Shown here piece after piece: positions 1,762 through 34,382 of a stretch of DNA of 64,000 bases; within the stretch, counting starts at the first letter, position 1, and every line of letters begins with the position of its first letter. The notes under the pieces were generated by a model that made no database searches, was not told the origin of the DNA, and was given only the letters and a program-made list of their open reading frames with translations. Source of the stretch: Styela clava (Eukaryota; Chordata; Ascidiacea; Stolidobranchia; Styelidae). Both the position numbers and the translations under genes were made by a program. The stretch is from NCBI RefSeq assembly GCF_964204865.1, contig NC_135252.1, positions 14,839,383 to 14,903,382 of the forward strand. Reading direction: 5' to 3'.

Positions 1762-2676
1762 TCAAAATCTAGGTAAATAGCAATGACATGCCACATCAAC
1801 TTGTATCAGTTTTTCGTAGCACCCATAATTGGTACACTTGTCGAACGAAGGAATATACGATTTTCTGTAGATGACTGAAACGACAACAGGAATTGGCTTT
1901 GACACGCCATTCCACGTATGTAGTCCAGTGTTTAGATCGATGCATCCTTTGCAAAGACAAGAAGCTTCAGTTATCACTTGCGGAAATCTAAAACAGAAAA
2001 ATACACATATATTGGGAGGTAATCTTTGAACTTGAAAAAATGTACTCATTAATTTGATTCCCAATGAATTTTCTTAATTTGACCCCAGAAGTTGAAAATT
2101 CCTAAACTTATTTCGATCTGGCCTTTAACATATATGCCAACACAGATGATGTGTGATCATAGTATTTGTTCTGATTTATTGTTGATTGATCACTTTGTCC
2201 ATTCTTTGAACACGTTATACCAACCTTGTTTCGTCGTAATGAGAACAATAATCCCACGGTGAGATACTCCTAAGATTTTCCTTCTTGACCCATTTCGGAA
2301 GATTTTCTCTGCAACTGGATCTCGGTCTGCATCCGAGTGAACTTCCTACTTGATTATCCATTGTAATCAGTCTAGCCTGGAACACCTCAAACGGTTTAGC
2401 ATAGGATGGTGCATCAGAATATTTCTTGTAATATTTAATTCGTGGTCTCACTTTACCGTTCATCCTTATATTTGTTGGATTGTGAGCTACGCGTTGGCAA
2501 ATACTTTTCAAATTTTGTGTCCTGAACATGTTACATTGCGACAGTATTGATGAATGAACTGGGACTTTACCCTTCGTGTATCTCTCAGTATAAACAATAT
2601 TTCCTTGCATAAAACATGAAAACCCGAGGACTAAATGAATGAATTGATTCATTATATTTACGTTATTCTGAAACAT
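1762..2676 (-). CDS. IL17: IL-17-family cytokine, copy 1
   Basis: Secreted cystine-knot cytokine of the interleukin-17 family. Two exons on the minus strand: 2676-2225 and 1987-1762, joined across a 237-base intron (donor GTTGGT, acceptor TTTTAG) that splits an Arg codon in phase 2. The joined frame closes at 225 aa. The first exon has a hydrophobic leader; Met9 (MNQFIHLVLGFSC) may be the real start. Then come the C-x11-C motif (CNMFRTQNLKSIC), a second Cys pair (CRPRSSC) and the IL-17 signature SISPWDYCSHYDETR. The second exon has RFPQVITEASCLCKGCID, KCTNYGC and VACHC. The tryptophan of the usual PQW is Val here and the terminal GCHC is ACHC, so this copy is slightly diverged, but no stop or frameshift is present. 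Members act as secreted dimers on IL-17 receptors; the receptor here is unknown. Family call is firm, orthology to a vertebrate IL-17 is not assignable. Confidence 0.88.
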
Positions 2677-4079
2677 GAAAAAGTATTTAAGTCTGAAAAT
2701 ATTTTACAAAAAGTTGATAATATGATAAAACAACAAGAATAATACTCCTCCCAAAAATAAAAATCGAATAGGCCTTCATGAAAAAGGGATCACTAGGGAT
2801 AACTTACAACAACTATTTGAGAACATATATATTCACAAATTGCACATTTATCAATCAGTAATCTGCGATTAAAAACGTATCGAAAAGTCACAATATCTGA
2901 AGCTGTAGTAATAAATATACTCTCAACAAAACTTTTAGTTTATGGAACAATTTTCGTCACCTATTGCTACAAACTCTCTGCATCATCTTCGCTTGGATTT
3001 TATATACGGATCAAGGAGTGCAAACAAAGTCGATCAAAAGATGGGTGGTTCGGCAAATGAGACCGCAAAATTTCGTCGATAACCTTGTAGTATAAGACTT
3101 GTTTTAATACAAACTAGGAAACTCTTCTCGGTGAACAGCACTGAATTTTATTGACAGTTCGACAAACTGACAATAATCGAATAAAAGCTAATAACTAGCA
3201 TTAATTTTTTTTACCACAAAATGTTATTCAAGACAAATCCAGTTGATTTAGTCTACCTTTAATCTCCGTCCAGTATGGTAAAACAATGAAGATTTGTTCT
3301 TATAGCAATAAAACTCGTGGGTGTATTATAACTTCTATCTATAATTTTAATGTTAACTAAGTATAGGACTGATAGCCTAATTACATATTTCCAGAATTTA
3401 TATAATTATTATTTAATCTGCATATTAACTAATGAACGGATAAATTAGCGCTACCGCAACAAAGAACTTCAAAATAAAGTACGTAATAAGGAACAAATTA
3501 AGATTGTGATTGCAGCAACAGAAATGTTAATGACATGGCAGATTTTGAACAAAGTGGGATTCAATGATGGTTGTCTCCAAATTTAAACTTTGAATAATTT
3601 TCTCTTGTCTTCGCACGCGACGGTAATTGGTATATATATTAAGTAATTATTTTGTGAGTTTTTAGGAATAAAGCAAGGAGCTCAAATACATAATTATATG
3701 TATCAAACAAGTTTATTTTTATGTACTGATTACTTTGTAAATCTATTGAAACCCAGTACAAACACATGCAGATACTCACATATATATATTAAACAACTTT
3801 CCATGAGAAGATAATAAGAAATTTGCAATAAATAGGAGTAAATCAAGTTAAAGATACTGTACTAAAATACCAGTGTTTTTATTCACCACAAACTAATCAT
3901 TTAAATGTTCTGAGTGAATGAACGCGACTTTTGAGGAAAATGCAGCCAGTCCGAAGCTGCTTTATCTCTCCATGCACCAACGAGTAAAACAATGCTTTCG
4001 CACAAAATCTCCAACAAAATATCAATGTTGGAATTCCGCGCTGGATAAACATGGGCATAATGTCAACTTAATTTGTAAT
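2677..4079. other. Intergenic sequence between divergent IL-17 copies 1 and 2 (left part)
   Basis: Upstream region of copy 1, AT-rich. I see no exon-like reading frame with family similarity. It should contain the promoter of copy 1, but I could not identify a convincing core element. Confidence 0.4.
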
Positions 4080-4500
4080 ACTTATTGGACACGAAGTGGA
4101 CATAACGATCGTTCCAACATTATGTTGGTCTTGTTGTTGTTGTTGTTGTTCTTTGACACTTTTTGGACATCTAGTGGAAAATATAAAAAAAACGCTTTTC
4201 TCTTTCATTACTGGACCGATTGCTTCGAAATTTTTACAGGTTAAAGATGAAGTTTTTCTCCAGAAAGCTATTACTTTTATTTAGTTCAAATATTTCTGTT
4301 AGCTCTGTGAGATTTTTTTTGTTTGCTATGACGTCATTAAACGTTCTGCGGACATCGGACGCCATTTTGTGTTCTACTGTACTGCTTCGCTTGGTGTGAA
4401 TATATTTGTAGACTGTGATCTGACGGTACGGTTAACCGTACTGTACTGCGAACAGACGTGTCCATATATTTGGGCGTAGCTCTCTTGTCCTAATTTCATA
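4080..4500 (+). repeat. Dispersed repeat, copy 1
   Basis: Shares ordered blocks with the copies near 22.0 kb and 42.9-43.4 kb: GTGGACATAACGATCGTT, a TTGTTG run, a block around GACCGATTGCTTCGAAATTTT, CCAGAAAGCTATTACTTTTA, a CRE-like palindrome TGACGTCA at 4329-4336, and ACGTGTCCATATATTTG near its end. The small open frames here (3918-4284) are repeat sequence, not genes. Element class is unknown; I see no transposase or terminal repeats. A short inverted stretch (CGGTACGGTTAACCGTACTG) lies near 4430. Confidence 0.7.
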
Positions 4501-5736
4501 TGTGAGAAGTCTATTATGGATGTTACCACGAACTTAGGCGGTATACCTACAGGTTAGTATACATCAGCATCCTTTGAGTTACTTTGAAGAGGCAATTTAA
4601 AAATAATTACTATAATTTGCCAGAAAAATATACTAATTAGTAAACCCGTTGCGACATTATGCTTTTCATCATCGAGAGATAATTTGAATGGCACATTATT
4701 GAGTTATAAGGCAAGGCAGAGCACTGGTTTGTCACAAAATCCTGAAACAGAAATTTAACGATGATTTTCTACAAAATATTCAAGCATGTTGTACAATCAG
4801 TATACAATTTGGAAGCCAAACAAACGATTCACTTCAAAAAGTCAGTCACCATGATGTAACTTACAACGCAAATGGTCAACAACTCCAGCACACGAACGGA
4901 TGAATGTTTACAACATTGGAAATTATAGATGACAAGTTTTATTGAATATAAATTGAAATTTGCTTGAAAATACAAAAACGTGATAATATTCCCCAGATTA
5001 AATGAACAAGGTAATGATTTAACAAGAAGATAATCCCTCTTATAATTGATCTTGTAACGCCATCCAACAGAATTAGCCGCGCGTAATAATGAAATAGTGT
5101 AAAAATTGGAGCGTATCAGAACATAAATGCAGAGGGCGATGCTGGTTCAGCTTTATACAAAACTTTCAACTGACTGCCTGATAAACGATATTGCGGTTGT
5201 GACTTGTGAAAACCGATAATGTTTAGGTAGACATAGTCTTGTTTAGTTTATTGAAATCGAACAAAGTTGGATCGGAGCAGATTCTAATCCAAGATGACCA
5301 ATAAGATGCAACAATACTGCAATAAACACGGGACCATGTAAAATGAAATTGATACTGGACTAAAAGTTCCGTTAGACTACGCGCATGTCGTCTCTGACTA
5401 TTCACATGGACAAGAAAAGTTTACAACTTGGGCATTGAATATCCTAGTATTTGGGTTGATATAGAGATGTCCATGCAAATAAATTCTGGTCGAGAGCACT
5501 AGATTCTTAATTCTACACGGCTAATATGGGCAGACTACCTCAATAAACAATTGACTATCGTACAATAGAATTTATCGCGAATAAAAAAGTAAAATTAAAA
5601 CGTGCCGAAAGGGAAAGCATATTCACCGTGGTCAGTCCATCTGTAATTTCATCGGGGAACTGTTTCAGGTAAAATACTGTATCTAACTAAGTTAAATATA
5701 TTTGTACTTTTTGTTTTCTAACGTTAAGTATCCATA
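4501..5736. other. Upstream region of IL-17 copy 2, no gene seen
   Basis: Non-coding between the dispersed repeat and the start codon of copy 2. A short minus-strand open frame (5223-5405) has no recognisable motif. The promoter and any 5' UTR exon of copy 2 should lie here but cannot be placed from sequence alone. Confidence 0.4.
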
Positions 5737-6766
5737 ATGTACGCCCCAGATTATCTTCTCATTATATCCCTCTGTTGGTCAAGTTCGTTTGGAAAATTGT
5801 TACTACCAAAATTTAATGAGCGCATGTGTGAACAGTTCAAGACCGAAAAACTCAGAAATGCTTGTCAGCGAACTTACGGGAGTACCCATCATGCTCAGTT
5901 ACAAAGTCATGCATACATGAAATCAATGAAGGATCTATTTAAAGAGTATGAGGTTGGAAAATTCATGCTATCTGATCTTTCTACAAAACTTACGTCACAC
6001 CGTCACCAACTCAGTATACAACGAAATGATGCAGACAACGGGGTAGGCGTTTCTCTGAGGTGTCGAACAAATACTCCGTGTCCCATACCTCCAAACATTC
6101 CCCAAAATAAAGAAAACCTACGTAGCAGTGCTCCCTGGGACTACTGTTTACACTTTAAAGCTACACGGTAAGTGACTTAAAATTATTTCAGACTAGATAT
6201 TCTGAATTCGAATTTTCCATATCTACAGACATAATCATTTTAAGTTTTTAAGTCTAGTTTAAATCAAATGAAACCTACTACTTTGACTCGGATTTTCACA
6301 TAGAATAAGAAATTGTTTTGTTAATCATGAGCTGCTGGCCTCATCTACTAACGCCTTGTCCGGAGCGTAATAGGTAAGGTAGGCAATACCTGAACATGAA
6401 AATTCCCCTCTTTTCTAATTCAAAAGTGGCCCCAGAAGATAATTAAGATAAGCTAGTCACCAAAATTTGATTTATTTGCATCCAGCTGCCACGTCATTCC
6501 ATATCTTTCAGATTTTATTCTCTTTTTTAAGATTTCCGCAGTGGCTCAATGAAGCAGCATGTCTGTGTAAAGGATGCATTGATTTCAATACCGGACAACA
6601 TGACAGAAACGTTGTATCTAAACCTGTTACAGTCATGATAACTGTTATCATGCGTTCACGTGCCATAAGCTCGTTTGCGGAGTGTACAAATCTTACTTGC
6701 TGGGAAAAGCAAATTAGTGTAGATGTTGGATGCCATTGTCATATACCAACATGGCCGGAACACTAA
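5737..6766 (+). CDS. IL17: IL-17-family cytokine, copy 2
   Basis: Secreted IL-17-family cytokine in two exons, 5737-6167 and 6532-6766, with a 364-base GT-AG intron (GTAAGT donor) splitting an Arg codon CG|A in phase 2. The frame closes at 221 aa with TAA at 6764-6766. The leader (LLIISLCWSSSFG) is hydrophobic. The N-terminal motif CEQFKTEKLRNAC keeps the C-x11-C spacing, but the usual NP...M...VR stretch after it is replaced by a His/Gln-rich segment. Then follow CRTNTPC and SSAPWDYCLHFKATR; the signature has A-P-W instead of S-P-W. Exon 2 gives RFPQWLNEAACLCKGCID, ECTNLTC and VGCHC. AATAAA at 6863-6868 is a likely polyadenylation signal. First of five same-strand copies; a large hAT-like element follows about 300 bases downstream. 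Confidence 0.88.
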
Positions 6767-7079
6767 ATAAATGGAACCTGACATGGCAAAATTTATTTTG
6801 AACTCTGCTGTCTCATCTATTTGATATTCTTGGTAATCGTCATGGTATTTCAAATGTATATTAATAAACACTAATTGAAAATTTGTTGTACAAGTGCTTT
6901 TTTATTAGATGTCGAGGCCTGACATGTGCATCATTATTATCATTACAATCGCACGGCATAAACAAATTAACGGTACTTGCTCTGATTCGTTTAAAAAGAA
7001 AAAATTGTATGAGAACCGTACATATCACTTTATCTATAAAACATTTCATTCGTAGAATGAGGAAGTATAACGTCTGAAT

Positions 7080-8967
7080 CAGTGCTCGTTAACCGGGTGT
7101 ATAGTGGGCTACACCCCAGGGTGTACCAGAAAGTTCAGGGGGCGTACCACTTCAATAGGGTTTACCGTTTCGAATGTTGTAAGCTACACACTCAACACAT
7201 GATATGCTAATTAAATACGCTAAAATTGGCAATGGTATGTGATATCTATCTAACTAACCTACACGTGTCAATTTATACATAATCTATGTCTGGTATTTTC
7301 TGATATCTGCTTATCATGATTTTAAAGTCACGATATCCTTTCGTAACAGTTCGATAATTTCTTAGCGGTACTTCTGTGAGACTGGGACTGACACTGGAGT
7401 TCATCCAGGTTGGCACTGGAAGAAGTAGTCTAATAAGCTGAGAATGTGATTATGGCGTGATTGTTTCGGCCATCTACATCAACATTTCGTTTTTTTTTAT
7501 CACGCATGTATAAAGTCTTGCGCTCAGGCGGACATCGCTGTTTGTTTAAGTTTTTTTTTTCGCGGAACTGCGCGTTCTGTTCGACAAACTCGAAAGCTAC
7601 TGTGCGATCATCGGCGAAGAGACGCTGAGGAAAGTTATAGGAACTATTTTGCAGCCCAAATTTCCAAATTAGCTTCATTTTGATTATTATCTCGTATCGT
7701 CTTTGAATTTTGATCGTCCTTATCGCCAACGTAAAATAAAAAGTGAACAATATCTTTGCCACTAGTTTCGGGGTTCGTTGTATTATTCTGTCGTGCCTAC
7801 GTTATTTTCCGTTAAAAAAACACATAACGCATTATAAACGCAAAACACATTATAACGCAAATATAACACTCAATTTTAACGTCTTTGTCTGGTAGCGAAA
7901 AGTGTGTGCAGTGTGTGTTTGTCAGAAATACGCAAGTGCTTTCTACTGTCCGAGCGTTTAATTCAGCAACGCGCCATGTTCAGGTCACGTGTTACCAGAC
8001 ATTAGAACAGTAAACTGCAAATATAACGCTCAATTTTGAGGTCTTTGTCTGTTAGCGAAAGATGTGTGTGCAGATTCTCGTGTGTTCTTCAGAAATCCGC
8101 AAATGCGTTTTGCTGTCGATACGATATTCGAATATTTTGTCCAGCTCTATCCTAAACTTGATTTTATGTATTTTGTAAATTCTAACGTGAATCGGAACTT
8201 GGCTGGTGTTCAAGTTTTGTAAAAACGTTTGCGGCCGCAATGAATTTCCCCATCTGAAAGTGACCCGCGATATCTTGATACATCATACGGCTGATACTAT
8301 TGCTATCTGTTATATGTATTGGCGGATAGGCATAATCTTAAGTTTTATGGCTCATTTATCAGTAAGTTTTCGAATAAATATTTAAGCATGTCGGAGCGAA
8401 AGTATACCTTCTAATTCTAATAGATTCGCCCGGTGTTTGCGACAATGCAGTGGCGGCAATAATTAAAGCCTTTCAGCTCTGACGGTAGACGCAAATTCTC
8501 TCGCGATTTTGCATGCAATTAATACGTTGTTAGTGCTCATAATTAATATGTTAAAACTTTGCATGGCAGTCTAAAAATGGATATAGTAGCATAAAGGACT
8601 TCCATACCGCGTTTTTTTGTGGCATTGTTCTCCGCCCCAAAGAACGGGATTTTGTTGGTGGTACGCGGCTGGAGTAAAATACACAAAATGGTTTGTTGTC
8701 AGTAAAAGGTTGAAACCACTGCTCTAATGAAAGGGGCACTGGAAACAAGAGTATTACTTCGCTTTGCACAAATGCCCGACGGAATCCAAGAGCAACGTTC
8801 ACATTATCTAAATATCGAACTATTGCGTCGACATAAACATATATATATAACATCTGAACAATTAATGAGTTGTTTTACGTATTAAAAATGTAGGATGGGC
8901 GGGATGTACCAGACTTTGAGAAAGGGTTGAAAGGGTGTACTATTAAAAAAAAAGTTGACGAGCACTG
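7080..8967. mobile_element. hAT-like DNA transposon or nested hAT composite, no recognisable transposase
   Basis: Bounded by inverted termini CAGTGCTCGTTAAC (7080-7093) and GTTGACGAGCACTG (8954-8967), which match at 13 of 14 positions. Subterminal sequence on both sides has GTGTACC-type blocks. The flanking 8-mers (GTCTGAAT and GCTAATGC) do not match, so a clean target duplication is missing. Another hAT-like end (GGTTGAAACCACTGC, about 8708-8722) inside suggests nesting. The largest open frame inside (7430-7762, minus) does not resemble a transposase, so the element looks non-autonomous or degenerate. Confidence 0.6.
7859..8118. repeat. Imperfect tandem duplication inside the hAT composite
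   Basis: Two adjacent diverged copies of about 100 bases begin near 7859 and 8019. They share AATATAAC[AG]CTCAATTTT, GTCTTTGTCTG[GT]TAGCGAAA and CAGAAAT[AC]CGCAA[GA]TGC, offset by about 160 bases. Non-coding. Confidence 0.6.
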
Positions 8968-10000
8968 GCTAATGCATTGTCTCAGCTAAGAGTGAGAAAA
9001 ATAAAAGTTTTTTTTTAAAGACGCCAACACATTTATTTTTCGTTTTTTTTTGTGATACCGCTAAGTTATAAAAGGCTTTCACAATATGAGATGATGTAGT
9101 TTGTCTGCTGAAGAATCGTGTGATATTGTTAGATGTCTGGACGGTTGTTTTGTAGGTTATGGGTATATAATATAGCATTTTGTGCCAGAGAAATGAAAAC
9201 ATTGAAAATGAATAGAATGACAGTGAAGGAATCAGGAGTCGGCAAACGTAATTTACATTCCGAGCAAGTTAATCGATTGACTTCTACGTAGACTCGTGAG
9301 GTACAATACCGATGTACTAATCGATGAATATTCATACCTTATACGATCTTTCTTCGAATACCGGTTTTTTTGCTCGCAGCAGTTTGATATCATTCTACGA
9401 GATCTTTTTTCAATTTAACCAATAACATAAACAACCAAATTATCACTTGACGTATCTTGCTAATTAAAAAATTGTAAATATAAACAGAATAACAAAATCA
9501 AACATTTTTTGAATTTACAAACCTGATTAATATCTGTTATTTATAATATTGTAAGGTGTGTTCATCAACAAATAAAATAGTTTGAATGTGTTCAATACAA
9601 AAAATTGTATTTAGGCACCGACCGAACAGCGGCTTTTTAGTTCTATTGCAAGATATTGTTAAGTTGGCTGGCCTCAACAGCATAAAGCTTACATTTACTT
9701 AATGCTATACAAGTACTCAAAGCCGACTTTGAGACATCTAACTATTATTACTAATTGTTTTTATCAAGTAAATCGAGCTACCGTGAAATGTTAATTTGTA
9801 GATATAAACCGAGATGGTAATCGTCGATTGAACGTGTGAAATTTGTAACACGGATGTACTGCGGAGGTTTTGTCATACACAAGTAGACAGGGCCGTCTGT
9901 ATGTCGTAAACAAGCTATCAATTGCAGTTTTATTTTTAATTAAATTTGAATCGTTTCATTTGCGATTCGTATACCATAAAGTATATACCATAGTTAAAAT

Positions 10001-10138
10001 TTATACTTGTACATAGAGAAGTGTAAAGTTTACAAGGCATGTTTTAAAAAACATTATCCAGAATTGTGTATGGAAGAAAGAAAGGTACAAGAGCACCAGA
10101 GTACGAAACCCATCACCAACGACATTGTCAAAAAGCAG
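10001..10138 (+). other. Possible orphan coding exon, Cys-rich
   Basis: An open stretch follows a TACATAG acceptor-like site and ends in CAG|GTAAAA, a plausible donor. It encodes KCKVYKACFKKHYPELC followed by a charged tail ending in VKKQ. It begins like the N-terminal motif of the cytokine copies (KCK...C), but the cysteine spacing differs (C-x5-C-x8-C) and no SPW block follows. I could not join it to other exons. It may be a diverged or dead cytokine exon, an unrelated small gene, or chance. Confidence 0.2.
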
Positions 10139-10478
10139 GTAAAATATTTCTTTTCGTTTTGTAATATTTATGACGTCGGATATGTCAAATCTGACCACCG
10201 CTCTAAAATGAATATCACATGGAAAAGTCTAACATAACTTGTCAAAAACGTGCGAATGACCTCTTTGTGAACTCGACGTGGCTATCACCTGGCAACTCGG
10301 GAATTGATTTATAAGAAGTATTGAATAGGGAAATTACATTTTCATGGCAAATGCAAATGTCAGAAGAGGTATGTCTGATTGCGCCAACCATTTTCTATTT
10401 TAAGAAACATATCATAATTGTACTTTGTATGCAAGAACCGTGTAACGCTCCCCAAATCGTGACCATATTGTTCTGAAC

Positions 10479-10666
10479 TATGTCATTGCACCCACGTTAC
10501 TTCCTTTAAATACATAAATAACAGGAGTAGTTTGAACGATATCGTTTGGCAATTCTACATAACCTTTAATGAGGCATTCAAGACAATTCCCGTCTAGACA
10601 AAGTATACAAGTCAACATGCAATACTTCCATTCTTCATAATAAAATAAGGTACATTTCATTGGCAT
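10479..10666 (-). pseudogene. Possible decayed IL-17 second exon
   Basis: The minus strand reads YYEEWKYCMLTCILCLDG, then NCLECLIKGYVELPND, then IVQTTPVIYVFK before a stop. The order Trp, clustered Cys, short linker and an alternating hydrophobic strand loosely mirrors the start of the second exon of the cytokine copies, with its W...CxCxxC and I.V.I.VL[KR] elements. Cys spacing is wrong, and the later C....C and GCxC blocks are not found beyond the stop. Weak resemblance; chance is quite possible. Confidence 0.15.
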
Positions 10667-13692: not shown

Positions 13693-15156
13693 ATGATTCA
13701 ATTAAAATACGTCGGCATCTTATTGGTAACAATATTAGTTCTCGCAAGATCAGAAGGCGATAGAATTCGAAGATCCTATGCACCGAATTGGAACATGTGG
13801 CGCGGAATTATCAACCAACCTTACATGTACCCATTGAACTACCAGTATGCCTACCCAATAATACAACGTGTGCACCCTACAATTTCTACGAAAAGGGTAA
13901 CAACGGAGCAGATCACGAGTCAGCCAACGACACCCACCATAGCCAATACCATAAGCACTACTACAACAATAGAACCTACTACAACAGCAGAACCTACCAC
14001 AACGAATACAACGACAACTGTTACAAATGACTCCCAGAATGAATTTGAACGCAGTTTTACTTTAACGCCAACTGCCAACAACAGTAATATTTTGCAAAAG
14101 TGTAAAAACGTTCGATTCAAGTCTCTCAGAGATTCTTGCATAAGAGTAGCACAAAATCCAATTCTTAAAGGTATGGACGACGTAAAGGGATATATAGGAG
14201 AAGAAGAAAACAATCAACCGACTCTGCTTATAACGAGAGGATTCTCATTTCTCAAGCCAACGCTTGGGACACAAACAATATGCAATGAACCAGAAACCTG
14301 CCCCGATTATACAGTGGACGACAGACCAACTCGGAAAAATCTATTAAGTTTATCGCCGTGGGTCATGTGTCGCGAATATGACCCGAATAGGTAAGAATGG
14401 TGGAGTCTGAACTTTTTGTTGTAGTATTTATTTTATTAGCGTTAAAACTATTAAAATACTACTTATTGGTGGATGAATATCATTAATATGATATGAACTG
14501 GTAGCGGTTTTTAAATCATGTATCAGTCAAATTATAACAGTAACATAATATAAAAATAGCTAGTCGCCGTCAATTGATTCGTGAAATATGTAAGTAATAA
14601 TGAAATACTGTGGTCAAATTTATTGAATTAATTTGTTTGACGTAAAATGTGCACAGAAATCTTTTTGGCCAAACGTGACTTAACGATGAAGCCACAGGGT
14701 GCCATGTACATAGTTACCTATAAATATTCTACGCGTGCTCAGTAGTTCCTTGTTTTCCTGGGGGTTCGTTATTTGGTTTCCGTAAAGTGCGTGGATTTCA
14801 TAAGCTGGACTTGATCTCTTATTACGTACATTGAATGAATAGTTTTCGCTGTGGGGATATTGTAGAATATACTTATCGAAACAATGTAATTATAATGAAA
14901 TTGTGATTTTTGTTATAGATTCCCGCAATGGATTAACGTGGCAAAATGTCTTTGTGGAGGTTGCATTAACTACCGGACTGGACAAGAAGAAGTCGGTGAC
15001 GTGGTGTCCCAAGAATTGAGAGTGGACATTAATGTTCTCAAAAAAGACATTTTGACCCGAACATTTGGTCAATGCACACGTAAAACTTGCCGAGAGGAGG
15101 TACAAAGTGTAGCGATAGGATGTCATTGCGCATTAGCTGATTTACGTGTAAAGTGA
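13693..15156 (+). CDS. IL17: IL-17-family cytokine with Thr-rich linker, copy 3
   Basis: Two exons, 13693-14390 and 14919-15156, phase-2 GT-AG intron of 528 bases; closes at 311 aa. The frame opens upstream at 13609, but the signal peptide begins at the Met at 13693 (MIQLKYVGILLVTILVLARS), so I take that start. A furin-like RIRR follows the leader at residues 24-27. Residues 64-111 are very Thr-rich (TTTTIEPTTTAEPTTT), a mucin-like stretch likely to be O-glycosylated and unlike the other copies. The conserved part then begins: CKNVRFKSLRDSC, CNEPETC, SLSPWVMCREYDPNR. Exon 2 has RFPQWINVAKCLCGGCIN, QCTRKTC and IGCHC. The mature chain has 12 cysteines. Longest linker of the plus-strand copies; no disruption seen. 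Confidence 0.9.
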
Positions 15157-16093: not shown

Positions 16094-17549
16094 ATGAAAT
16101 GTATTCTAATATTAAATCTGATGCTCTATTGGCTAATCACCATTGTTACGGGAAAATGTATTTCTACACCGGAGGGAACGAAATGCACGCCGGATACAAC
16201 AATATACAATCCACTGAATGGACCGCCCGGTGGTCTTTTTGACAAAAGAGAGCAGCAACCAATGAAGGCAACTCCTCACCATGAACAGCTATATAAGCAG
16301 TGCCTTGATATTCGGAACCGGGATATGCGTAGTGCCTGTATAAGAATATCTAAGAATCCCATTCTAAAAAATATGGGAAACGGCACAAAAGGTGTTATAG
16401 ACGACAGAGAATTGACTTTTCCATTTATTATCGGTCGAGGATTACACTTCCAATTTATTTCGGAACACGTGGTTCAAAACGTTTGTGATCAAAAAATGAA
16501 TTGCCCAGATGGAGAAGAGTTGAAGAGAACTGATGATAATATGTCTAGTTTGTCTCCGTGGAAATATTGTATGCAGTACGATTCTTTAAGGTATGTACGC
16601 GTTTCATTATAACAACAATTTTCTGGACTGAACCGTGTAATACCGGACATGTGGTATTTGTCGTCGAATGAATTGAAAATGATACGATACAATTGTACAT
16701 CATAGGAATGGCGGGTTTACTGCATTAGATCAGTAAAAAATAATAAAAAAAAACAGCACTCCACATCATGTTATACTCTAATAGCCACACCCTTAATTGA
16801 TATGGCGTTGGGTTACCCGAAGTATGAATTATACCTTGAATATTCTAAAGTTTAGTTCAAAAATTCACATCGAAAAAAAAGGTTAAATAAAGAGTAAATA
16901 TTTTATTTTACCGACTTCAATTTGATGAGGTAGATAAATACATATGCAAAGTTTGAAGCGATGTGCGTTTAATGTTGTTTAATTGGCTGCGTTAGGAACG
17001 CCCACATATTAATTATTTATAACAAATATGCTATCTGCTCCTCATTGTCTATTTTTCGGTAAAATACGGAATCCGCGAAAACTTTGATTTTCTTATTATA
17101 ACCTAGTACAGAAATAAATCCCCCGACACTCTTAAATTAGTAATAAGTAAGTAACTGAAAGTAATAATACGCGGATCTTTTTGACTGCTGATATTTATCT
17201 CTGGTAATACCTTGTACATATATTATGAATACACGGTATTCATCACACGGTATCGTGTGTGAAGTATTTCTTACATTCATAAAATAATTTTACTATCTTT
17301 TGCTATTTCAGGTATCCCCAGTGGATAAATGTCGCTCAGTGCTTATGTAGCGGATGCTTACATCCATTCACTGGAGCTGAAATTCATGGCAACGTTCTAT
17401 CCAAGGAAATTCACGTTGAGATAAATGTTCTTCGAAAATTCTCGTTAAAGCATCCATTCAGCAAGTGTAATCGAAAAATCTGCGAAGAAACGACTCAAAA
17501 AATACCAATCGGATGTCATTGCCAAATTGCCAATGTTCAGAATGTATAA
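16094..17549 (+). CDS. IL17: IL-17-family cytokine, copy 4
   Basis: Two exons, 16094-16590 (donor GTATGT) and 17312-17549 (acceptor ATTTCAG), with a 721-base phase-2 intron; closes at 244 aa with TAA at 17547-17549. The second exon has no ATG and is easily missed by an open-frame scan; its translation begins RYPQWINVAQCLCSGCLH. The leader is MKCILILNLMLYWLITIVTG. An extra Cys pair just after it (KCISTPEGTKC) is specific to this copy. The core is CLDIRNRDMRSAC, CDQKMNC and SLSPWKYCMQYDSLR, then KCNRKIC and IGCHC. The stretch CIRISKNPILKNM is close to copy 3 (CIRVAQNPILKGM), so the two neighbours are probably a recent tandem pair. Confidence 0.9.
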
Positions 17550-20213: not shown

Positions 20214-21460
20214 ATGACATTCGCGAGTTTGTGGTTGGTAGTTATACTTCTAATTAATGTGATTAGTGTCGGGGCTGCCCAAGAAAAGAAAGGATCCACC
20301 AGCAAACTACGAACGATTCCAAAACGAATGCATTTCCAAGTCAGATCTCAATGTAAACTATTCAAAACTTGGAAAATGAAACAGCTTTGTAATCAAGTTG
20401 CATCTGATCCCAATATCGTGAAAATGGGCCGTAAAGTACGAGCATTTGTTAAAAATAACGATGAGAAAAGGTTCAGCAAAAGGATGCGTAAATTATCATC
20501 AAACGCTAGAGCTCTTACTATTCCCACTCCTCCAGTAGATGGATTTACTATGCCTTCTATTTCTCGGACGTTATCATCAAATACTGGATTTCAATGTACG
20601 AAATCCTGTCCAAGTTATAGTTCACTTTTGTCGGGAAAAACTCCAATTCAAAGAAGCTTTTCACCTTGGGAGTCATGCGCCCACTACGATCCTCTAAGGT
20701 AAGTTTCCTTTTAGAGAATGATTTTGAACACAAAATTCTACGTTGAGGGAAAGAATTGATATTGCCACTTACAACATAATAGTATTAGATCCTGTTTAAA
20801 ATAATTCACTACATTTGCTCAATTACTTTTATAGAGTAACTCACCATTTACAATTGTACTGAGTAATTTGTACCCAAAAAACAAACCCATGCCATTTCGA
20901 ACACATTCTAGAGAGTCAAAAATTTGGGGAGAGCGTCTTAGATTCCTAAAACTTTTGGATCATACACAAATAGAAGTTCAAGATTACAAGTGTTAAATAA
21001 ATTTTCTTCATTTTCATGAAGGAAATTAACATATTTATGACTTCTGTTTTTAGGTCACCCTGGAATATAAATGATTTTACATGATGAATAAACTATACAT
21101 GATTTTTATGATTGAAAGGAATATTTATCGATAAACCCGTAAACAAAACCTATATCGGTTGTTCCGCAGTATCGGTGTATCTGACAAATAGATTTCTATC
21201 TACCTCATTTCTTAATTTTACTCTGCAGATTTCCTCAATGGCTGAAGCTTGGGTTTTGCTCTTGTAAAGGATGCATAAATCCAGAAACTAAAAATGAAGA
21301 TATGTCATTCGTGTCGGAACCAATCACCGTAAACATCACCGTGTTGAAACGAAAGCCAGGCGTTTCATTTAGTGAATGTAAGAATCCGAATGTGGGATGT
21401 GAAAAAGCATTACTAGAAGTTACTCTAGGTTGCACATGTGTATTACCAAAAGGAACATAA
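20214..21460 (+). CDS. IL17: IL-17-family cytokine, copy 5
   Basis: Two exons, 20214-20698 and 21229-21460, phase-2 intron of 530 bases with strong sites (AAG|GTAAGT, CTGCAG). Closes at 238 aa. Leader MTFASLWLVVILLINVISVGA is followed by a basic segment, then CKLFKTWKMKQLC in the C-x11-C position and VASDPNIVKMGRKVRA. The linker is basic (KRFSKRMRK) and could be cleaved. Then CTKSC, a shorter version of the second Cys pair, and SFSPWESCAHYDPLR. Exon 2 gives RFPQWLKLGFCSCKGCIN, ECKNPNVGC and LGCTC; the last matches the vertebrate-style GCTC. AATAAA at 21575-21580 is a probable polyadenylation signal. Twelve cysteines in the mature chain. Confidence 0.9.
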
Positions 21461-22749: not shown

Positions 22750-23160
22750 GGGACATCAAACAACTTATTGTACTAGATTGCCGAAGATAAAAACCACAGG
22801 TATCCACCAAAGAAGCGTATAGCAGACAAAACCATACTGTTCACAGCCCGAGGGAACATGTGCTTTAATTCAAGTTTTTGTCTATATCCAGCTGCACTAT
22901 AAATACCGCTAAGTTGTCGCAAACATTCGACGATGCGAAAGAACAACATATAATTAAAAATATGTTACCAAAATACTGGAGGAGGAAAAGTAATGTATAG
23001 CAAATCGGTTTTACCAGTTTACCAGATTGACAAGAAAAGCAGCAGAATTTGCTACAGGATATTATTAGTTTAACAAGAGTATGGGTTACATGGCGTTGCT
23101 AATCCGAGCAAAAATCGAGCTGGTTGCAGTGACACATTGAGAACAGGACTAACTCTACAG

Positions 23161-23836: not shown

Positions 23837-23844
23837 CTCTACAG

Positions 23845-25177: not shown

Positions 25178-26429
25178 ATGAGCAATTTGATATCACTGTT
25201 ATGTATCTTGCTATTTTCAATTAAAATTGGAACATCACAACCAACACATGAATCGAACCACCAACACAACGACACAACACATGAATCGAATCAAGTCGAT
25301 ACAGAGAACTTCGTGCTTACAGCTACAACAGCAAAGCCAGAAGAGGAGACAACGTTATCTATTTTGGAACAATTTCGCAGAGCTCTTCCAACTGTTCCAA
25401 CTGCCAAGCCTGCTAAGATTCCTCGAATTCCGGCCCACAAAGGAATAATTAAAAAGTGCAAATTGCTCCCAACGTACAGACTTCGAGAATCCTGCAAATC
25501 AATAGCGGAGAATGGGCTTATATACAGTATGGAGAAAAATGTTTTAGCATTTGTAAACAGAACCGAAGAAAAAGAATTTTACAAGAAAGAATCGGTCACT
25601 GGGGAAAGATCATTATCATTTGGCATTGCTCTTCCGGGAGAGCAGAACTGTGATGCGACATGTCCTTCTGGAAAAGAATGGTCGACTGCCACTGAAAAGC
25701 ATGAACGCAGTTTTTCACCATGGGGATATTGTGATAACTACGACCCAGATAGGTAAATACAATTTCATTTACTCAATACATCCAAGTTAATACTATTACT
25801 ATCGGAAATTGATCAATATCCAGGTCAAGAGAGTTGAAATTTATTTGACGGCGATTGGTTTGCGGTTTGTTTTTCAATATAGCGCCGCGTTCTAATACTA
25901 ATTCCAACTCTTAAGCTGCAGACACGGTCAAAAATTTAGACCTCTACGCGAAAGAATTTACCACGGAATAGCATTTGCAACGACAGCGTTTAAATTGTCT
26001 TAATTTTTTGAAACGCAAAATCTAATCTAAAATTATTCGTGCCTGTTTAGAAGTTCTGTTCATTGTTTATCAAAACTGTAAACAAAATTATAAAATAGCC
26101 ATCAAAACAATTGTACCCTATTACGCAAAACATGCAAAATAATAAAAAAATTTGATTCGTGACATATATACCATTTAACTGAATAAATGCATATTTTCAG
26201 ACTTCCACAGTGGATATCTTATGCTAAATGTAAATGCAAAGGATGTATGGATCCCAACACGCTTGAAGAAAATCTCAGCTACAGTTCAATAGAACTAAAG
26301 ACGGCTATTCCGGTTTTAAGAAAAGAGCAAGAAGTGATGGATTTTCAAGACTGTACGAACAAAAAATGCAAAGAAAGTGTCGTTGAAATCGTTATCGGTT
26401 GTTATTGCTTTTTGCCATTTATATCCTAA
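25178..26429 (+). CDS. IL17: IL-17-family cytokine, copy 6
   Basis: Two exons, 25178-25752 and 26201-26429, phase-2 intron of 448 bases; closes at 267 aa. Leader MSNLISLLCILLFSIKIGTS. After it comes a His/Asn/Thr linker containing a short duplicated unit (THESNHQHND / THESNQVD) and a Pro/Lys segment (PTVPTAKPAKIPRIPAHKG). The conserved region is CKLLPTYRLRESC (C-x11-C), CDATC and SFSPWGYCDNYDPDR; exon 2 gives RLPQWISYAKCKCKGCMD, DCTNKKC and IGCYC. NRT is a possible N-glycosylation site in the linker between the two halves. Last of the five plus-strand copies; convergent with copy 7, whose stop is about 1.1 kb away. Confidence 0.9.
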
Positions 26430-27566
26430 CTCAACTTTGTCTGAATTGTTGATAGCTGAGGCTTGTTACTGTAAACACATTCAATTTTTGGTGAAATGAG
26501 AAAAAAAATTATTTATTGTCGCCTGCATGAAAAACTTGCATCTGCATTTTCTCCGCCCTATCGAGAGTTTCATAAACACTACGATAAACTAAGTAAACGC
26601 TCTCGTACAGCATTCCCACTCCAAATTTGTTTGTAAGATTTGACATTTGATTCGTGTTCATTCAAAAAAAAATAGCCGTAATTTTAGGGCTGAAAATACC
26701 AAATCAAGCTTACGCAGAATAGCATGTTGAGTGTAAACAGCCAAATGCAGATTTACTTAACGCAAACTTGATTTCTCAGTCAGTTCCATATTTTAGTCCA
26801 TAGTATCAGAAATACGATAAATCTGTTATACATAAGATATAGATGCTAATGGACATTTTCACAAATTCGTGTATTCAACGGACTGCAAAGTTAATATTTG
26901 TTTGTATATTATGTTGTTTGCTTCTGGTATATCATGACGAATACTATCCAACAAACTTGCATCTTTGTACCAGTGTTGATCATATTTAGATATTCAAATT
27001 ATATATACGATAATAAAAAAACAGAATGCACGATAAGACCTTTCTCAACGAAATGTAGGATGCAGAATACAACAATCTCATTACACCTTTTCATTCTACA
27101 AATGCATCACAGTCATCGTTCAGGTGAATTTTGTCGAGTCTCGGGCCAACCGGTATCCGATGTTTTGGTATCCGCATATTGGTCACAGGGTCATATCCAA
27201 AACCCATTGTGTGACAGTAATTGCTTTCAACTTTTCTACCGGTAATCGAGCCTTGCTTCGAATAATAAAAAAAGTGAATTTGGTTGAATACTTCAATTGA
27301 ATGGGTATCTAGTCTTTAGCAAGTGGAACTGAATCCTAATATTACACAAATCTTATGTAAATTATGCCACAAACATTAAAGCGTGATACTAGTCTTCGGA
27401 CACCTATCCATTTTATAGACTTGAATGCATTTATTATGAGCTTGTCATAGAACAGTTTCGAATTGACTGCTCTAAACTTTGTATAGGAGTTTATTGAAAA
27501 TACAAGACCGTGAAGTAGGCTACTGTTATTCATTAGGCTTTACTGAGATTGTCAAGTCATCGTGGT
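26430..27566. other. Convergent intergenic sequence between IL-17 copies 6 and 7
   Basis: Contains the 3' ends of two genes that face each other. An open frame at 26898-27245 is unrecognised and AT-rich. No repeat identified. Confidence 0.4.
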
Positions 27567-29478
27567 CTATTCGAATGAAAACCTTCTACAATGACACCCG
27601 ATAGGAATCTCAATGACTTTCAGCTCGCAATCTCCTGTCTTAGAATCACAACTCGAGAACGTTATCGATGCAGATTTTCTCATTATCACTGATTCTTCCG
27701 TTGTCAATAGTTCAGATGCTAAGCTAAAATCTTCGTTACCGGTAGCAATATTAATGCATCCTTGGCAGAGACATCGGGCAAACAAAATCTTTTCCGGGAA
27801 TCTAATAAAAATAAATGGAAACTTTTAAGATTTCGTGTTTTTAAAAAAATAATATGCTGTCTAGTTATGATACTTGTGATAATGTAATAATAATAATAAA
27901 ATTTGTGTGATAAATATACCGCTTACAAGCAAAAATGCTAAAATTGAGGTAGTTTATGAAGTATAGCATAGAAACTGAAAGGTTATTACGTATAAACGAT
28001 ATCGACTTACATGTTCCCAAAATTGAGAACAATTTATTCCAAATGTTAACAAACAAGATAATAACCTGAGTGGGTCATAGTCGACGTAGTAATCCCAAGG
28101 AGAAATGCTCATTTGATGTTTCTCTTTTCCCAATAAACTCAGATCACACGTTGGTCTTCCTAAAATTTGAATTTTTGAATGCTTTTATTGATAATCATAA
28201 TAAAAATATTCGAAAACAATTTGAAGATAAAAAAAGACAAAGCTAATCTCAAATGATATATCAATATTTGAACCCAATATTTCGAATAGACAAATGTTGT
28301 TCTTTGGACGTATTATCTTTAAATTATTTTTACTGAAACGTTTATTTTAACTAAGACTGTTTAGGGTGGATTATCACATGTTGAAGCGTTTTGGCATATG
28401 AAAAAAAACGATGAAAACATAAATTTTCAATTTTAAACTCTTTCATCTTTATATTAAAATACTTTAGTAAATATCACTCTAAAACTTTGACCAGAAAACC
28501 AGTTTGAAAGCATTTATTTTTGGTCATTTTTTCAAATAAAACTTCTCTAAATTTCAACATTTGCCTTTTTGTCTGAAAAACCTCGTATTCACATATAATA
28601 GGTTTGAGAATGAGGATGGAAAGATATATGTCAGTTCACCAGACTTTAAATTGGCAGTCATAAACTTTGCAACATATCACCAAATTCAATACAATATGGA
28701 TTTAAATTCGAAATACTACTCATGTAGCATCGTTACTCCGATGTTATTTACCTGCAGGTTTGCCCAATTTCACGGGTATTCCGGGAAAAATCGCTTCTAG
28801 ATTCTCTATTCTAGCAGGAATCTTCTCTATCATCGTGATTGTAGTCGGCGGTGGTGTTTCAGAAACTACCAACATTCCTCGCGAACCGTCGTCCCTACCT
28901 GGTTGAATCGAATTATAATGCCAAGAATTTTCTTCTGGCCTTTCAATGCGTAGATCGTTTCGCCCTTTTCCAGTGATCCTATCATACAAAGGATTTGTTT
29001 GTTCATTCTCATCACTAATATTCGTATTCTCTGACAAAACTTCAGATTCGCGGACGCGAAGATTTTGTATTGCGGGATATTCGATTTCGTATTCGATTTC
29101 CACTATGTCATTTCCATTATAGTCACACGGTCTTTCCACATTCTTTATAGCGGTATCCTCACTTAACACTCCAGTTATGGGGTTGTGAATATTTTGTATT
29201 CCGGGTTTTTCAATTTCATCTTCGCTTTCCACTGGCAATACCGGGTCATGATCATATGACTCAATTAACTCACTCTTGAAATGCGGACTTAATGAAATAT
29301 ATCGACAGGCCTGACGCAGTTTTCTGTCCACGAACATTTTGCACTTTTTCCTTATTTCCGAACTCCCTAATTTCTTATAACCTTTGACAGAAGAAAATCG
29401 ATTTACAGAACACCAACAGACTGAAAATAGCGTCAGTAATAACACCAAACGAACAAAATAAAAATATTTCTTCACCAT
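27567..29478 (-). CDS. IL17: IL-17-family cytokine with acidic insert and extra intron, copy 7
   Basis: Three coding exons on the minus strand: 29478-28752, 28159-28066 and 27801-27567. The first intron is phase 1 (GCAG|GTAAAT ... TTTTAG) and unique to this copy; the second is the shared phase-2 Arg intron. The joined frame closes at 351 aa, the longest of the set. Leader about residues 1-24, CKMFVDRKLRQAC (C-x11-C, Cys46-Cys58), then a roughly 170-residue acidic region containing an internal duplication (residues 86-112 and 129-155, each with EIE.P.IQN and VLSE.T.I). The small middle exon encodes PTCDLS and SISPWDYYVDYDPLR; the usual Cys after SPW is Tyr. Exon 3 has RFPEKILFARCLCQGCIN (no PQW), SCDSKTGDC and IGCHC. 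No stops or frameshifts. Copies 7 and 8 share cysteine losses and are probably sisters. Confidence 0.85.
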
Positions 29479-31706
29479 TTCTGTTTGAGGTTATATCCAA
29501 CTATTTCACAATAGACACGAGATTACCCATTAGAATCAGTTCTGCGTTTCGAAATCGTAAAATCTTGAAGATTATGTTGTTTACGGCATTTGCGTCACGC
29601 TGGCCACCCTTTCCCCCGATCACAGCAAAGCGTGACGGCGAAGCTTCCATGCGTAAATCACTACTTATAAAATGCTTAGTCCTGGTGGCATCATCAAATC
29701 CATCGCCTGTTCCAAAATAAATTTTCTCAATGTCTCGCGTAGTTTCATTAGTATGATATCGAGTTGAACAAGTATAAACCGCTAGATAAAAATATATTTG
29801 GACTGAAATTAACTATAATTTCAACTGAAGGGCGAGAAAGATAAACATTGAGTAAAATTGTATGCAATCAGATCTTCAAATCATTGACAAAATTAGTAAT
29901 CACTGAAAGCTTATTGGCGACACCGAGTGACTAAACTTCGTTGAAGAATGCAAAGGTCAACTATTACGAAATCTTTAAATCCATTTTCTGAACGCTTCGC
30001 AAAGAAGATCGGTACAATCACAAGACTTACATATATCAGATTATTTTTAGACAAAACAAAATCGACGGAAAGTGCACGAACCGCGAATTTGGAATTTGAA
30101 AGCCAAATCTACTTTACGTAAAGATAGTATATAGAAGTAACACGTTTACGCCGTTAACTTGGTAGTCTGCGTAAAAATAAACAAACGAATTATAAGGCCA
30201 TTAATGAACGAAACATTAACGTAAAGTAATTGCAAGATATTTACTGCTGTCACGACTTTCTATCCTTAATAGTATGAGTAATAAAAAAGAGTGATTTTCG
30301 AAACGTTAGATATTTTATTCTTGCTCACAAGATTTATAATTAATCCACGTTTAATTTTAATATGAAGGATTTTTATATGAAATTATCTCAAATCTAAGAA
30401 AAACAATTAGTTTTCATGATATTCAACTTATAAATAATTACTTGTCCAGACATATCATATCACTTCGACTTTTCTAGGCAAACGAGTTGGTATTGAATAT
30501 GCTGGATAATTTTGTTCAGACCAATGTGAAAGTCAAGTAAAAAAAAATCATCGAGTTTGTTTGTCAAACTGGTGATCATTGTGGATTAAATTTGAAGCAC
30601 AGATACTTTGAAAATGTTTCAAGGCGTGGTCGTGAAATTCTAACCAAAATCGTATAGTAATATTACATATGATGTTGTTGCAGTTCAGTTTCATTGCTTC
30701 TCCTCGTCCTTCATGGTATCAATACAGTATTGCATTTTCTCTGTGAAATACCATTATTATATTTCATTTTCGCAATTTATTTTTTTATCGAAATGTCGGA
30801 CTCGGTCAACTGTTTTTCTGAAAACATCTATTTGTTTCTATGTTCGTCATAAGCCTATCAGACACTGATGCATCACACATGTCTCCCAACTATCCTTCTA
30901 GCATAAATACTCGTCGAGTAATGCAACATTCAGTATTCGGATTGGACAAGGAATTGTTTTGGTAAAGCAGTATTACGAACAAATTTTATTATTATTTGTA
31001 CCACCGCGCAGTATCTAAACAATATATATATCTCATCTATGCCTCCAGTACTTCATGTCCAATGCTCTCATGCCACAAAACACGACTTCGACGTAAATCT
31101 AAGTAAGTCAATAAATTTAAAATGCAAACAACGACTTATATTTTTTCATTGTTATTCCTAATCTGCTTTTTTGTACCTAAATTCGCAAAAAAACACGAAC
31201 GAAACAGTTGAAGCACGCTGTGGTATTTTATTTAATTACTGAAATCAACGAACTTGGAAAAATAATAATTTACTGAACTATATAACCAAAGTCAAAAAAT
31301 ATCATAAATATGAAAAAGCAAAAGTAAAAATAAATTATTTTGGACATAACATAAACACAAATGCAGGGCATTCATAAATGCGGAATATTGTGCGCATAAT
31401 CAGAAAATAAATAATAAATATCGGACGTACAGTGGGCTTATGAAAAGTTCATTCGCAAAAATGGTTTGTGCTTTAGAAGGAGTAACTTGTGGCCAGTCGT
31501 GGAAATTGGCCAATCGCTCTTCAGTCTTACAATGGCAATTTTGCCTCTGGGCAAGAACAAGATACGTGATATAGTTACGAGGATACCAATGCCCACCAAA
31601 GAAATTTACGACATTACTTAATTAGATTCTGTTCCTCGCTTTCACTCGTCTTCCACTGAATGAAACAACGATTCTTCGAATATGCTCATTCCAGTTGCAA
31701 GGTCGT
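29479..31706. other. Intergenic sequence between IL-17 copies 7 and 8
   Basis: About 2.2 kb, AT-rich, with the upstream region of copy 7 at its left end and the 3' flank of copy 8 at its right. A GC-richer patch at 29590-29680 has no open frame that I recognise. Confidence 0.4.
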
Positions 31707-34382
31707 TCAGGGACTAAGCTCAACTGGAATTGCACAATGACAACCAACCGCAATATCCTCGTCGGAAGCGTAGCACGTACTATCGGTGCATTGACGAAAT
31801 GATGAATGAGTAGAATTCATGCGAAGAAATCTGACTTTAACTTTAATTTCTTTTGAAACAAAAGCTTTATTTTCTTTTCCTGAGCGTTGGTCTATACACC
31901 CCTTGCACATACATCTTGCGACAGGAATCCACTGGGGATACCTAAATGGTTGGAACAAAAGTAGGGATTAGAATTAAACAATGAAATAGAACGAAGATGG
32001 TGTTTTAGGATACGATATACACTATTAATTGCGTAATATCATCTCACACATTTTCCAAATGGCATAAAATACACATTAATTACCGCATCTCACGTTTTAC
32101 AAAGATTGCGTTAGTGATGCAACTTTTACTCTTTAGAAATTGACCTTCTGACCGAAAAACGATATAAATGACGTCACAATGCCCTTATGTATAAATATAT
32201 TATGACGTGTAGCATTTATATAGAAATATATTCATTGTATATATAAACCAATTATGCAATATGCAAATGGGACACTCTAACACACCAAAATTGCAAATTT
32301 ATATTGAATTGACTATTCATTACTTGAACTTGATGAGTGATTTATAATTTTATTCATGTAAGTAATGAGAAAAGGCCAAATCAATTTTTGAAATAATCGA
32401 CGGATCTGATTCCATAATTTACGTGCAGAAGCTAATGATCAACGCAAAACGAAACCTGATATTTGCTAGTTCAGAAGTCTTATTACATTGAGCCAAGATG
32501 TTTGATTAAACGACCCTTGTATACGAAACTAATATGTTAGGCAAGTTGAATCCATGATTTCGGTGTATTCTCATGCCAAATTTAAATGAAATGATGTAGA
32601 TTTTACGTTAAAATTTCGGGATATTTAGTCATGGTAATGCTATAGAATATATGTATTGTTAATTCGAAATGGGAAAGAGTATTAATGAACAAAACGAAGG
32701 AAATACAATATCGTTTAATGAATTCGTATATAAATGTAATTGTGAAAGGTTAAAAATGCATAATCCGGATGTTGTACATTTGTATATTTTAGTTCGTAAG
32801 TGCGCTATTGATTGACCGTATTAGTTGAACATGTTTCATCCGTGGCCTACGCTTTGTTTAATTTTTGTGTACTCATTCGATAAACTTAGAAAAATCATCA
32901 TTTTATGATGCTTCGGAATTCGACACGTTTGTTTGCATAAAATGTCAACAATTACTTTGATATTTTAATTTTTGTTCCGATATGCAAATTAAAAATTTGA
33001 AATTAGAAATTATATTTCGTGCATATAATAAAAATGAATTAAATTCAAAAGAATATGAAAGCGAGGAATATTTTCGATTATATTATTGGAATTATTTTAG
33101 TCTAAACATATCACGTTTTTCTTTATTAATTTCGATATACGTTGTTTTTTTCTGTGGATTTTAATATTTACGAAATACTTATGGGCGTTTCTGGAGACAG
33201 CGAGGCCGTAATACACCATGCCAACTTCCAAAAGTTTACTTCTTGGAACAAATCTGACGTAAAGTTATAATTTTTCGGGGCAATACATTACGTACATTCA
33301 TCCAATTATCTAGTTTAAGGCTTCCGATATCGCTTACAATGAGCAGATTCAACGACAAAATTGTTGATAAAATGGCTTCGAAGACAGACATTTTATTGTT
33401 AAAGTATCGTAAATAAAATCAGGGATTTTATCAAAATGCTGATTGTTAAAAAAACGTTGTTTAGCTGCGATAGCGTTTTACGGCATATGACGTGATTTTT
33501 TTTATTCAAAAAGTATTTTACCGTTTTCCAATCTCAACTTTGGAGGTGTGGCCCCATATTACCGACACCCATTTTTGTAGGACCATGACTATGCATTGTA
33601 AAATTGTTTGATGATCGGTAATGCTAATCTTAATAGAGATTTAAACTGCCTGTGACATAACCATTGACATTTGTCGTAAATATGCTGCGTACGAGGTACG
33701 TGCATATCTTAAAGAGTAATCACATGTCCCTCCTTGCATTGAAATACAAACTAGTGTCTATAAATAAACGTACTTTCCTAAAAACAGAGTTAGGTACCAT
33801 GGTAAAGATTCAATACAACATTGATATGGTATCACATTGTTGTAAAAATAAAACTGACTTCTAAAAATAATATTAAACGTGTATTTACCTTTGTACGTCA
33901 AAATCTGGCATCATTTTCCAAGGGGATAAACTTCTATCGTGAGGTTGTACGTACGGGGTTTGATGTGAATAATCCGGACATTTTAACCCTTGTTGTCCTT
34001 CCAGAGGTATATCGCTCTTTGTTATCTGAGTCGTCCACGGCAGTTGTTTGAGATGTCCACGAACTTTTTCTTTCATTGACACAATAATAGGATTTTCAGC
34101 AATTCTCTCACACAATTGTCTTAATCTTGGCGTTGGAAAGTATTCACACTGTCTCAATAAACCTTCGTGATTTTTGACATCTGGTCGTGATCTCAACAAA
34201 CTTTCCCTGGTAGTATATTCTGGCATCGTAATAGTTGATTGAGTGTTCTGTATTTGAAAGTGTGATTCTGGGTAGAGAATACTTTTGGCAGAAACTGAAT
34301 TTTTCAGTATGTGCACTAACATCCACAATATACCCAATCTCAATACTCTAATCACGTTCATGACACTTCGCGTTCTAGACAT
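31707..34382 (-). CDS. IL17: IL-17-family cytokine with long intron, copy 8
   Basis: Two exons on the minus strand: 34382-33889 and 31941-31707. They are separated by a 1,947-base phase-2 intron, against 237-721 bases for this intron in the other copies. Joined frame closes at 242 aa. The leader may start at Met1 or Met8 (MNVIRVLRLGILWMLVHI). CEYFPTPRLRQLC gives the C-x11-C motif, followed by IAENPIIVSMKEKVRG, close to the consensus. Only one Cys remains of the second pair (LKCPDYS), and the SPW block is SLSPWKMMPDFDVQR with no Cys. Exon 2 has RYPQWIPVARCMCKGCID, QCTDSTC and VGCHC. The mature chain has 10 cysteines instead of 12. The exon join spans 1.9 kb and is inferred from matching phase and orientation; a missed neighbouring copy is possible but none is visible. 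Confidence 0.82.

Follow-up and report, generated by a model that had tools for sequence, protein, structure and literature searches.

An old tandem family of eight predicted IL-17 genes in the ascidian Styela clava

The window analysed here is a 64-kb stretch of DNA from the ascidian Styela clava (64,000 nucleotides of contig NC_135252.1, positions 14,839,383 to 14,903,382), and it contains eight genes of the IL-17 family within positions 1762..34382. The stop codon of the first gene (g1) ends at 1762, and the first methionine codon of the last (g8) is at 34382. A sequence-only reading had proposed eight apparently intact IL-17 genes in this interval with the strand order - +++++ --, and both proposals hold for the finished models. 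The Pfam IL17 domain is found in all eight, the strand order along the array is as described, and each model is in frame with a single terminal stop and with GT-AG borders at its introns (nine of nine). The splice sites were picked by hand for GT-AG and frame, and so the joins are predictions. The same reading considered both exon counts and splice phase to be conserved, and here only the second part survives. A phase-2 intron that cuts an arginine codon right before [FYL]PQ or FPE is common to all eight genes, but exon counts differ, with two coding exons in seven genes and three in g7. A stop-to-stop reading of positions 1-36000 placed a hydrophobic start on eight upstream exons and a C-terminal [GA]CxC motif on the last exons, in the form ACHC in g1 and GCxC in the other seven. 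The GC content is 32-37%. Chance does not account for the open frames: nearby sequence (34.6-46 kb) has a stop frequency of 0.061, at which the frames of a gene would stay open with a probability of 1.2e-6 to 2.6e-10.

The leftmost gene, g1 (1762..2652, minus strand), encodes 217 amino acids (aa) in exons 2652-2225 and 1987-1762, which are separated by a phase-2 intron of 237 nucleotides (nt) with donor AG|GTTGGT and acceptor TTTTAG. Head-to-head with it lies g2 (5737..6766, plus strand; 221 aa; exons 5737-6167 and 6532-6766; phase-2 intron of 364 nt), in which APW replaces the SPW motif of the other copies. The Pfam match of g2 widens from profile positions 14-80 with the last exon alone to 1-80 with the spliced protein, and this supports the predicted join. 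The plus-strand series continues with g3 (13693..15156; 311 aa; exons 13693-14390 and 14919-15156; phase-2 intron of 528 nt), g4 (16094..17549; 244 aa; exons 16094-16590 and 17312-17549; phase-2 intron of 721 nt), g5 (20214..21460; 238 aa; exons 20214-20698 and 21229-21460; phase-2 intron of 530 nt) and g6 (25178..26429; 267 aa; exons 25178-25752 and 26201-26429; phase-2 intron of 448 nt). The last two genes are on the minus strand. In g7 (27567..29478; 351 aa; exons 29478-28752, 28159-28066 and 27801-27567; introns of 592 nt in phase 1 and 264 nt in phase 2) the SPW motif sits alone on the 94-nt middle exon, flanked by the additional phase-1 intron. A frameshift was suspected in this gene because the frame of exon 1 fails to join the last exon, but the middle exon closes both joins. 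The final gene, g8 (31707..34382; exons 34382-33889 and 31941-31707; phase-2 intron of 1947 nt), encodes 242 aa, or 235 aa from a second methionine at 34361.

Assignment to the IL-17 family is supported by both profile and model comparisons. The Pfam IL17 profile (PF06083) matches the last exons alone in all eight genes, with 46.2-54.6 bits against a cut-off of 24 (E 6.2e-12 to 1.5e-14), and it matches all eight spliced proteins, with a best E of 2.5e-19. Spliced g2, the only member with a full row, matches at E 1.5e-17 over positions 1-80 of the 81 in the profile. When an alignment profile was searched against the PDB at E up to 0.1, the only proteins returned were IL-17F, IL-17A and IL-25 (25 distinct sequences, E 1.1e-15 to 1.2e-13). 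Four knot cysteines, in a CxxxxC whose second cysteine follows a glycine and in a CxC, are invariant in the array; in g2 they are C154, C159, C211 and C213, and they align with cysteines of IL-17F. The glycine preceding the CxC is alanine in g1. A template-free model of g2, compared with the PDB by Foldseek, likewise found IL-17 chains best, with IL-17A and IL-17F at the top (E 6.9e-6 and worse) and IL-25 also present; TMt was 0.51-0.73 in the best 50 of 306 matches. The titles of those 50 entries name IL-17A, IL-17F, IL-17AF or IL-25, except for 5n7w_X and 5n7w_Y, which are titled as a designed antibody; 5n7w_X is IL-17A according to the PDB profile search. The sequence-only reading would have been refuted by domains that belonged to a different cystine-knot family; the Pfam, PDB profile and Foldseek searches found no match to any such family, and in the Pfam scans of the array proteins no other family rose above cut-off.

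The predicted pre-proteins share an order of parts: a probable signal peptide, a variable linker, a segment with two cysteines separated by eleven residues (CX11C), a second variable stretch, and a C-terminal domain that would form the IL-17 cystine knot, with the third disulfide replaced by serine (alanine in g2). An N-terminal hydrophobic stretch is present in all eight, with a maximum ten-residue mean hydropathy of 1.96-3.40. Invariant throughout are the two CX11C cysteines, seven cysteines encoded in the last exon, the proline and tryptophan of SPW, and the arginine at the splice join. The serine of SPW is present in seven of the eight (alanine in g2) and the second knot serine in all eight, and no copy has cysteine at either position. 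Serine at the third-disulfide positions is described as the chordate state, and cysteine as that of other invertebrates, in the available text of two papers (PMC4517768, PMC8353272); the array thus has the chordate-type serines, except that alanine in g2 is neither state.

The linkers were said in the sequence-only reading to be very unlike one another, and this is borne out by a pre-core identity of 14-34% versus a core identity of 32-60%. The linkers of g1 and g5 are basic, that of g3 is Thr-rich, that of g6 is His/Asn/Thr-rich, and g7 has a long acidic one. The g3 exon at 13693-14390 encodes a linker with 24% Thr and three N-glycosylation sequons (residues 105, 112 and 129), and residue 24 marks an RIRR site close to where the probable signal peptide ends. 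The g3 linker is mucin-like, and processing might occur.

The CX11C segment precedes the core in every copy, and it is probably a disulfide-stapled helical hairpin. The g2 model is helical around C31-C43, with ten-residue means of the predicted local distance difference test (pLDDT) of 88 and 80 for residues 31-50, and it is beta in the core. Searched against the PDB, 44 residues of g8 that include the hairpin had no meaningful relative (best E 0.41, to designed proteins), and the CX11C region had no credible Pfam domain, only a weak Nuf2 match in one member (E 0.17). A further cysteine difference separates the copies. Within about 30 residues before SPW there are two cysteines in g1-g6 and one in g7 and g8, and g7 and g8 also lack the cysteine of SPWxxC that g1-g6 have. 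With signal ends estimated, the cysteines after the probable signal peptide number 12, 12, 12, 14, 12, 12, 11 and 10 from g1 to g8. These counts are only suggestive of the loss of one disulfide in g7 and g8, coming as they do from eight sequences and with an odd count in g7. One might go further and regard the array as a distinct IL-17 subclass, marked by a stapled CX11C hairpin in every copy and by a coupled cysteine pair (one cysteine upstream of SPW with that of SPWxxC) in g1-g6 that is absent from g7 and g8, a proposal that we consider doubtful. If it were true, the hairpin would be a second functional module, perhaps a pro-domain, a receptor-selecting arm or a released peptide, diversifying with each duplicate.

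The eight copies are old and long diverged. Core identity between copies ranges from 32.3 to 59.8%, and the reciprocal best pairs are g1/g2 (59.8%) and g3/g4 (51.0%). In a tree of the eight, only g3/g4 clears both support thresholds (97/98); g1/g2 reaches 89/90, and three of the five inner branches are open. Similarity showed no significant trend with distance along the array (r -0.20 at an exact P of 0.16; P=0.087 for the mean of adjacent pairs). Either the order has been reshuffled, or the array is too old to show a trend, or eight genes are too few. Tandem duplication with local inversions, as suggested in the sequence-only reading, is upheld in part: stepwise duplication can be seen only for g1/g2 and g3/g4, and the inversions are read from strand alone. 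The core is under constraint. The proportion of nonsynonymous differences (pN, 0.26-0.49) is below that of synonymous differences (pS, 0.56-0.99) in all 28 comparisons, and the ratio of nonsynonymous to synonymous rates (dN/dS) is 0.18-0.62 in seven pairs.

Very probably the eight IL-17 cytokine genes are functional and form an old tandem family that goes back to one ancestral gene in an invertebrate chordate; the sequence-only reading saw in them a candidate lineage-specific set. Origin by duplication of a single gene is supported by the intron position and phase common to all eight copies and by the CX11C segment that they all carry, and the ancestral gene most likely had two coding exons. 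The best reading of the predicted proteins is that they are secreted cytokines that act via IL-17 receptors. Most likely they would be secreted as disulfide-linked dimers and would signal via SEFIR-type IL-17 receptors in epithelia and hemocytes, and the linkers may give the copies different expression or different receptor preferences. An immune role can be suggested by analogy with other invertebrates, at least from the accessible parts of the reports. In Ciona, IL-17-1 and -3 rise 1-4 h after lipopolysaccharide (LPS) (PMC8537429), and an LPS response of IL-17 genes is also given elsewhere (PMC5465252). Recombinant Botryllus IL-17 raised cytotoxicity (PMC8398012), and sea urchin IL-17s are early gut responders, with IL-17-1 and -4 responding in the larval gut (PMC5457136).

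Several observations weigh against so full a reading. The signal peptides were assessed by hydropathy alone. The synonymous rate (dS) is not calculable in 21 of the 28 pairs, and there is consequently no estimate of selection on any single copy. The g2 model, made from an eight-row alignment for one of the eight copies, has low confidence (mean pLDDT 57.4), and in its Foldseek alignments the root-mean-square deviation is often >10 A and TMq just 0.30-0.33. In addition, the eight genes have no immune motif in common within 600 nt upstream: strict NF-kB sites occur in none, loose NF-kB sites in one, AP-1 sites in none, sites like the interferon-stimulated response element (ISRE) in two, and C/EBP-like sites in four.

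The last of these observations, with no NF-kB or AP-1 site common upstream of the eight genes, would favour a reading in which the genes are real IL-17-fold genes whose products act as developmental or neuro-hormonal signals rather than as immune cytokines. Precedents of a sort can be found in the consulted parts of two papers, in that crustacean female sex hormone carries an IL-17 domain (PMC10604874) and Botryllus over-transcribes IL-17 at its generation change (PMC5465252). Nevertheless, this explanation is unlikely, since the Ciona genes respond to LPS (PMC8537429) and mucosal immunity has been linked in print to the expanded tandem IL-17 sets of marine filter feeders (PMC8353272, PMC5457136, as far as the text of each was available). 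It is also quite improbable that part of the array is decaying, with some copies recent pseudogenes or never expressed. The candidates would be g7, with its extra intron, and g8, with its 1.9 kb intron, both of them without the SPWxxC cysteine. However, all eight frames and the modelled splice sites are intact despite near-saturated synonymous divergence, and g7 and g8 are without both members of what seems to be a single cysteine pair, as a coordinated change would give. False tandem copies, with haplotypes or repeats placed side by side, are frequent in highly polymorphic marine genomes, and the count of eight could in principle be an assembly artefact of that kind. This possibility is close to negligible: it is strongly disfavoured by cores that are only 32-60% identical, and a repeat search of positions 1-36000 reported just one family of 41-nt direct repeats (83% alike, in two copies), with no inverted repeat reaching 40 nt. 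Old divergence together with intact frames argues both that the copies are not an assembly artefact and that they are not evident pseudogenes. The splice sites, the excess of pS over pN and the profile scores likewise speak against pseudogenes and chance resemblance.

The limits of the array were explored with three module profiles (N-terminal CX11C, SPW stretch and last exon) built from the eight genes and run on 2904 six-frame open reading frames (ORFs) from the whole window. The profiles recover the eight genes, as they must, at E 2.7e-12 to 5.4e-37. The next matches have E 0.18 or worse, and the 64 kb thus shows no sign of a ninth copy or a relic, though strongly decayed relics could escape. 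A short DNA pattern for SPW had no copies in the array and one unrelated match at 54669, codon use being too variable. The left edge of the window is 1.76 kb from g1, and the array may continue beyond it. The 3.1-kb gap between the divergent sister genes g1 and g2 (2653-5736) might contain control elements common to both; the 600 nt next to the start show only an ISRE-like site for g2 and, for g1, C/EBP-like and TATA-like sites. C/EBP-like sites upstream of the genes occur at chance density (0.61 per 600 nt).

No other convincing gene had been noticed between the IL-17 genes, and nothing found here contradicts this. A Pfam scan of the 118 ORFs with 66 aa or more that lie apart from the array genes gave 18 families at E 0.05, with its clear matches, by eye, right of the array. 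Four of the larger ORFs in the gaps of the array had no Pfam match at E 0.1. The clear non-IL-17 matches are to DEAD_2 (4.3e-18), Helicase_C_2 (2.2e-7, three members) and RRM_1 (7.4e-5, two members), and the corresponding ORFs were placed right of the array on the minus strand by eye from their translations. The helicase pieces lie at the right end of the window and include about 58353-58733, although the ORF at 58356-58733 by itself has no Pfam match; we take them to resemble a DDX11-type helicase. An RRM exon lies at 48205-48570 and nearby on the minus strand (RRM_1 at E 0.038 for that ORF, below cut-off), and the RRM ORFs presumably resemble a nucleolar RRM protein. The plus-strand ORF at 52843-53184 has a weak match to the HIND motif (E 0.0014; 18.4 bits, under the cut-off of 25), and a 49-nt tandem repeat (2.1 copies, 94% matches) occupies 43255-43356. 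The searches for transfer RNA genes and Rfam families returned no matches, and viral contigs searched with the last exon of g2 gave no confirmed relative.

Tandem IL-17 arrays are already established in sea urchin, molluscs and a hemichordate (PMC5457136, PMC8353272, each available in part). What is unusual in Styela is the number of serine-type copies in one cluster, along with the fixed CX11C segment. The literature searches, made largely outside subscription journals, showed no tunicate with a published eight-gene IL-17 array. Eight clustered copies exceed the IL-17 counts reported for Ciona, which are three, five or seven depending on the paper (PMC4517768, PMC8353272, PMC5465252, going by the portions available). 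The locus would be a compact place to ask whether duplicated IL-17s split tissues, microbes or receptors. The conserved CX11C segment offers a concrete testable feature, and the accessible IL-17 literature contains no mention of it that we found.

The closest parallel is the SpIL17-1 cluster of Strongylocentrotus purpuratus, as described in the available text of PMC5457136: eight tandem IL-17 genes in a 59.8 kb region beside SpIL17-10a, all of them small, with one to three exons, and products of lineage-specific tandem duplication. The two arrays differ in structure. Exon 1 of SpIL17-1 encodes only methionine and a single further residue, leaving the domain to exon 2, whereas here the intron splits SPW from the remaining domain; the sea urchin proteins have cysteine where vertebrates and this array have serine (alanine in g2); and that text does not mention a CX11C segment. 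The Ciona intestinalis IL-17s resemble the Styela proteins in being from a chordate and in having serine at the third-disulfide positions (PMC4517768, PMC8353272, in the parts at hand). According to the description in the first of these, four of five listed Ciona genes are on chromosome 1, and the listed proteins are 171-199 aa long, four of the five genes having two introns, compared to 217-351 aa and a single intron (two in g7) in Styela. Repeated tandem duplication within a single scaffold has been described for IL-17 genes of mussel, scallop, octopus and the hemichordate Saccoglossus, and two exons, the usual number here, are also commonest in mussel; the same source gives CPW for invertebrate and SPW for chordate IL-17s (PMC8353272, as far as available), and this array has SPW in seven copies and APW in g2.

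Like human IL-17A, IL-17F and IL-25 (PDB 2vxs, 1jpy, 7uwj), the array proteins carry serines at the knot positions, and their SPW...DPxRxP...GC...GCxC core aligns with IL-17A/F. They differ from human IL-17A/F in their long N-terminal parts and in extra cysteines (CxCxGC, CX4C or CX6C, and around SPW). A CLCxGC is also present in IL-17B to E. A parallel from another family is provided by the tunicate TNF superfamily, for which independent tandem duplications and up to 14 genes per species are reported in the available part of PMC12843592. With the Styela array, IL-17 would be, like the TNF superfamily, a cytokine family that tandem duplication has expanded in the vertebrates' sister group.

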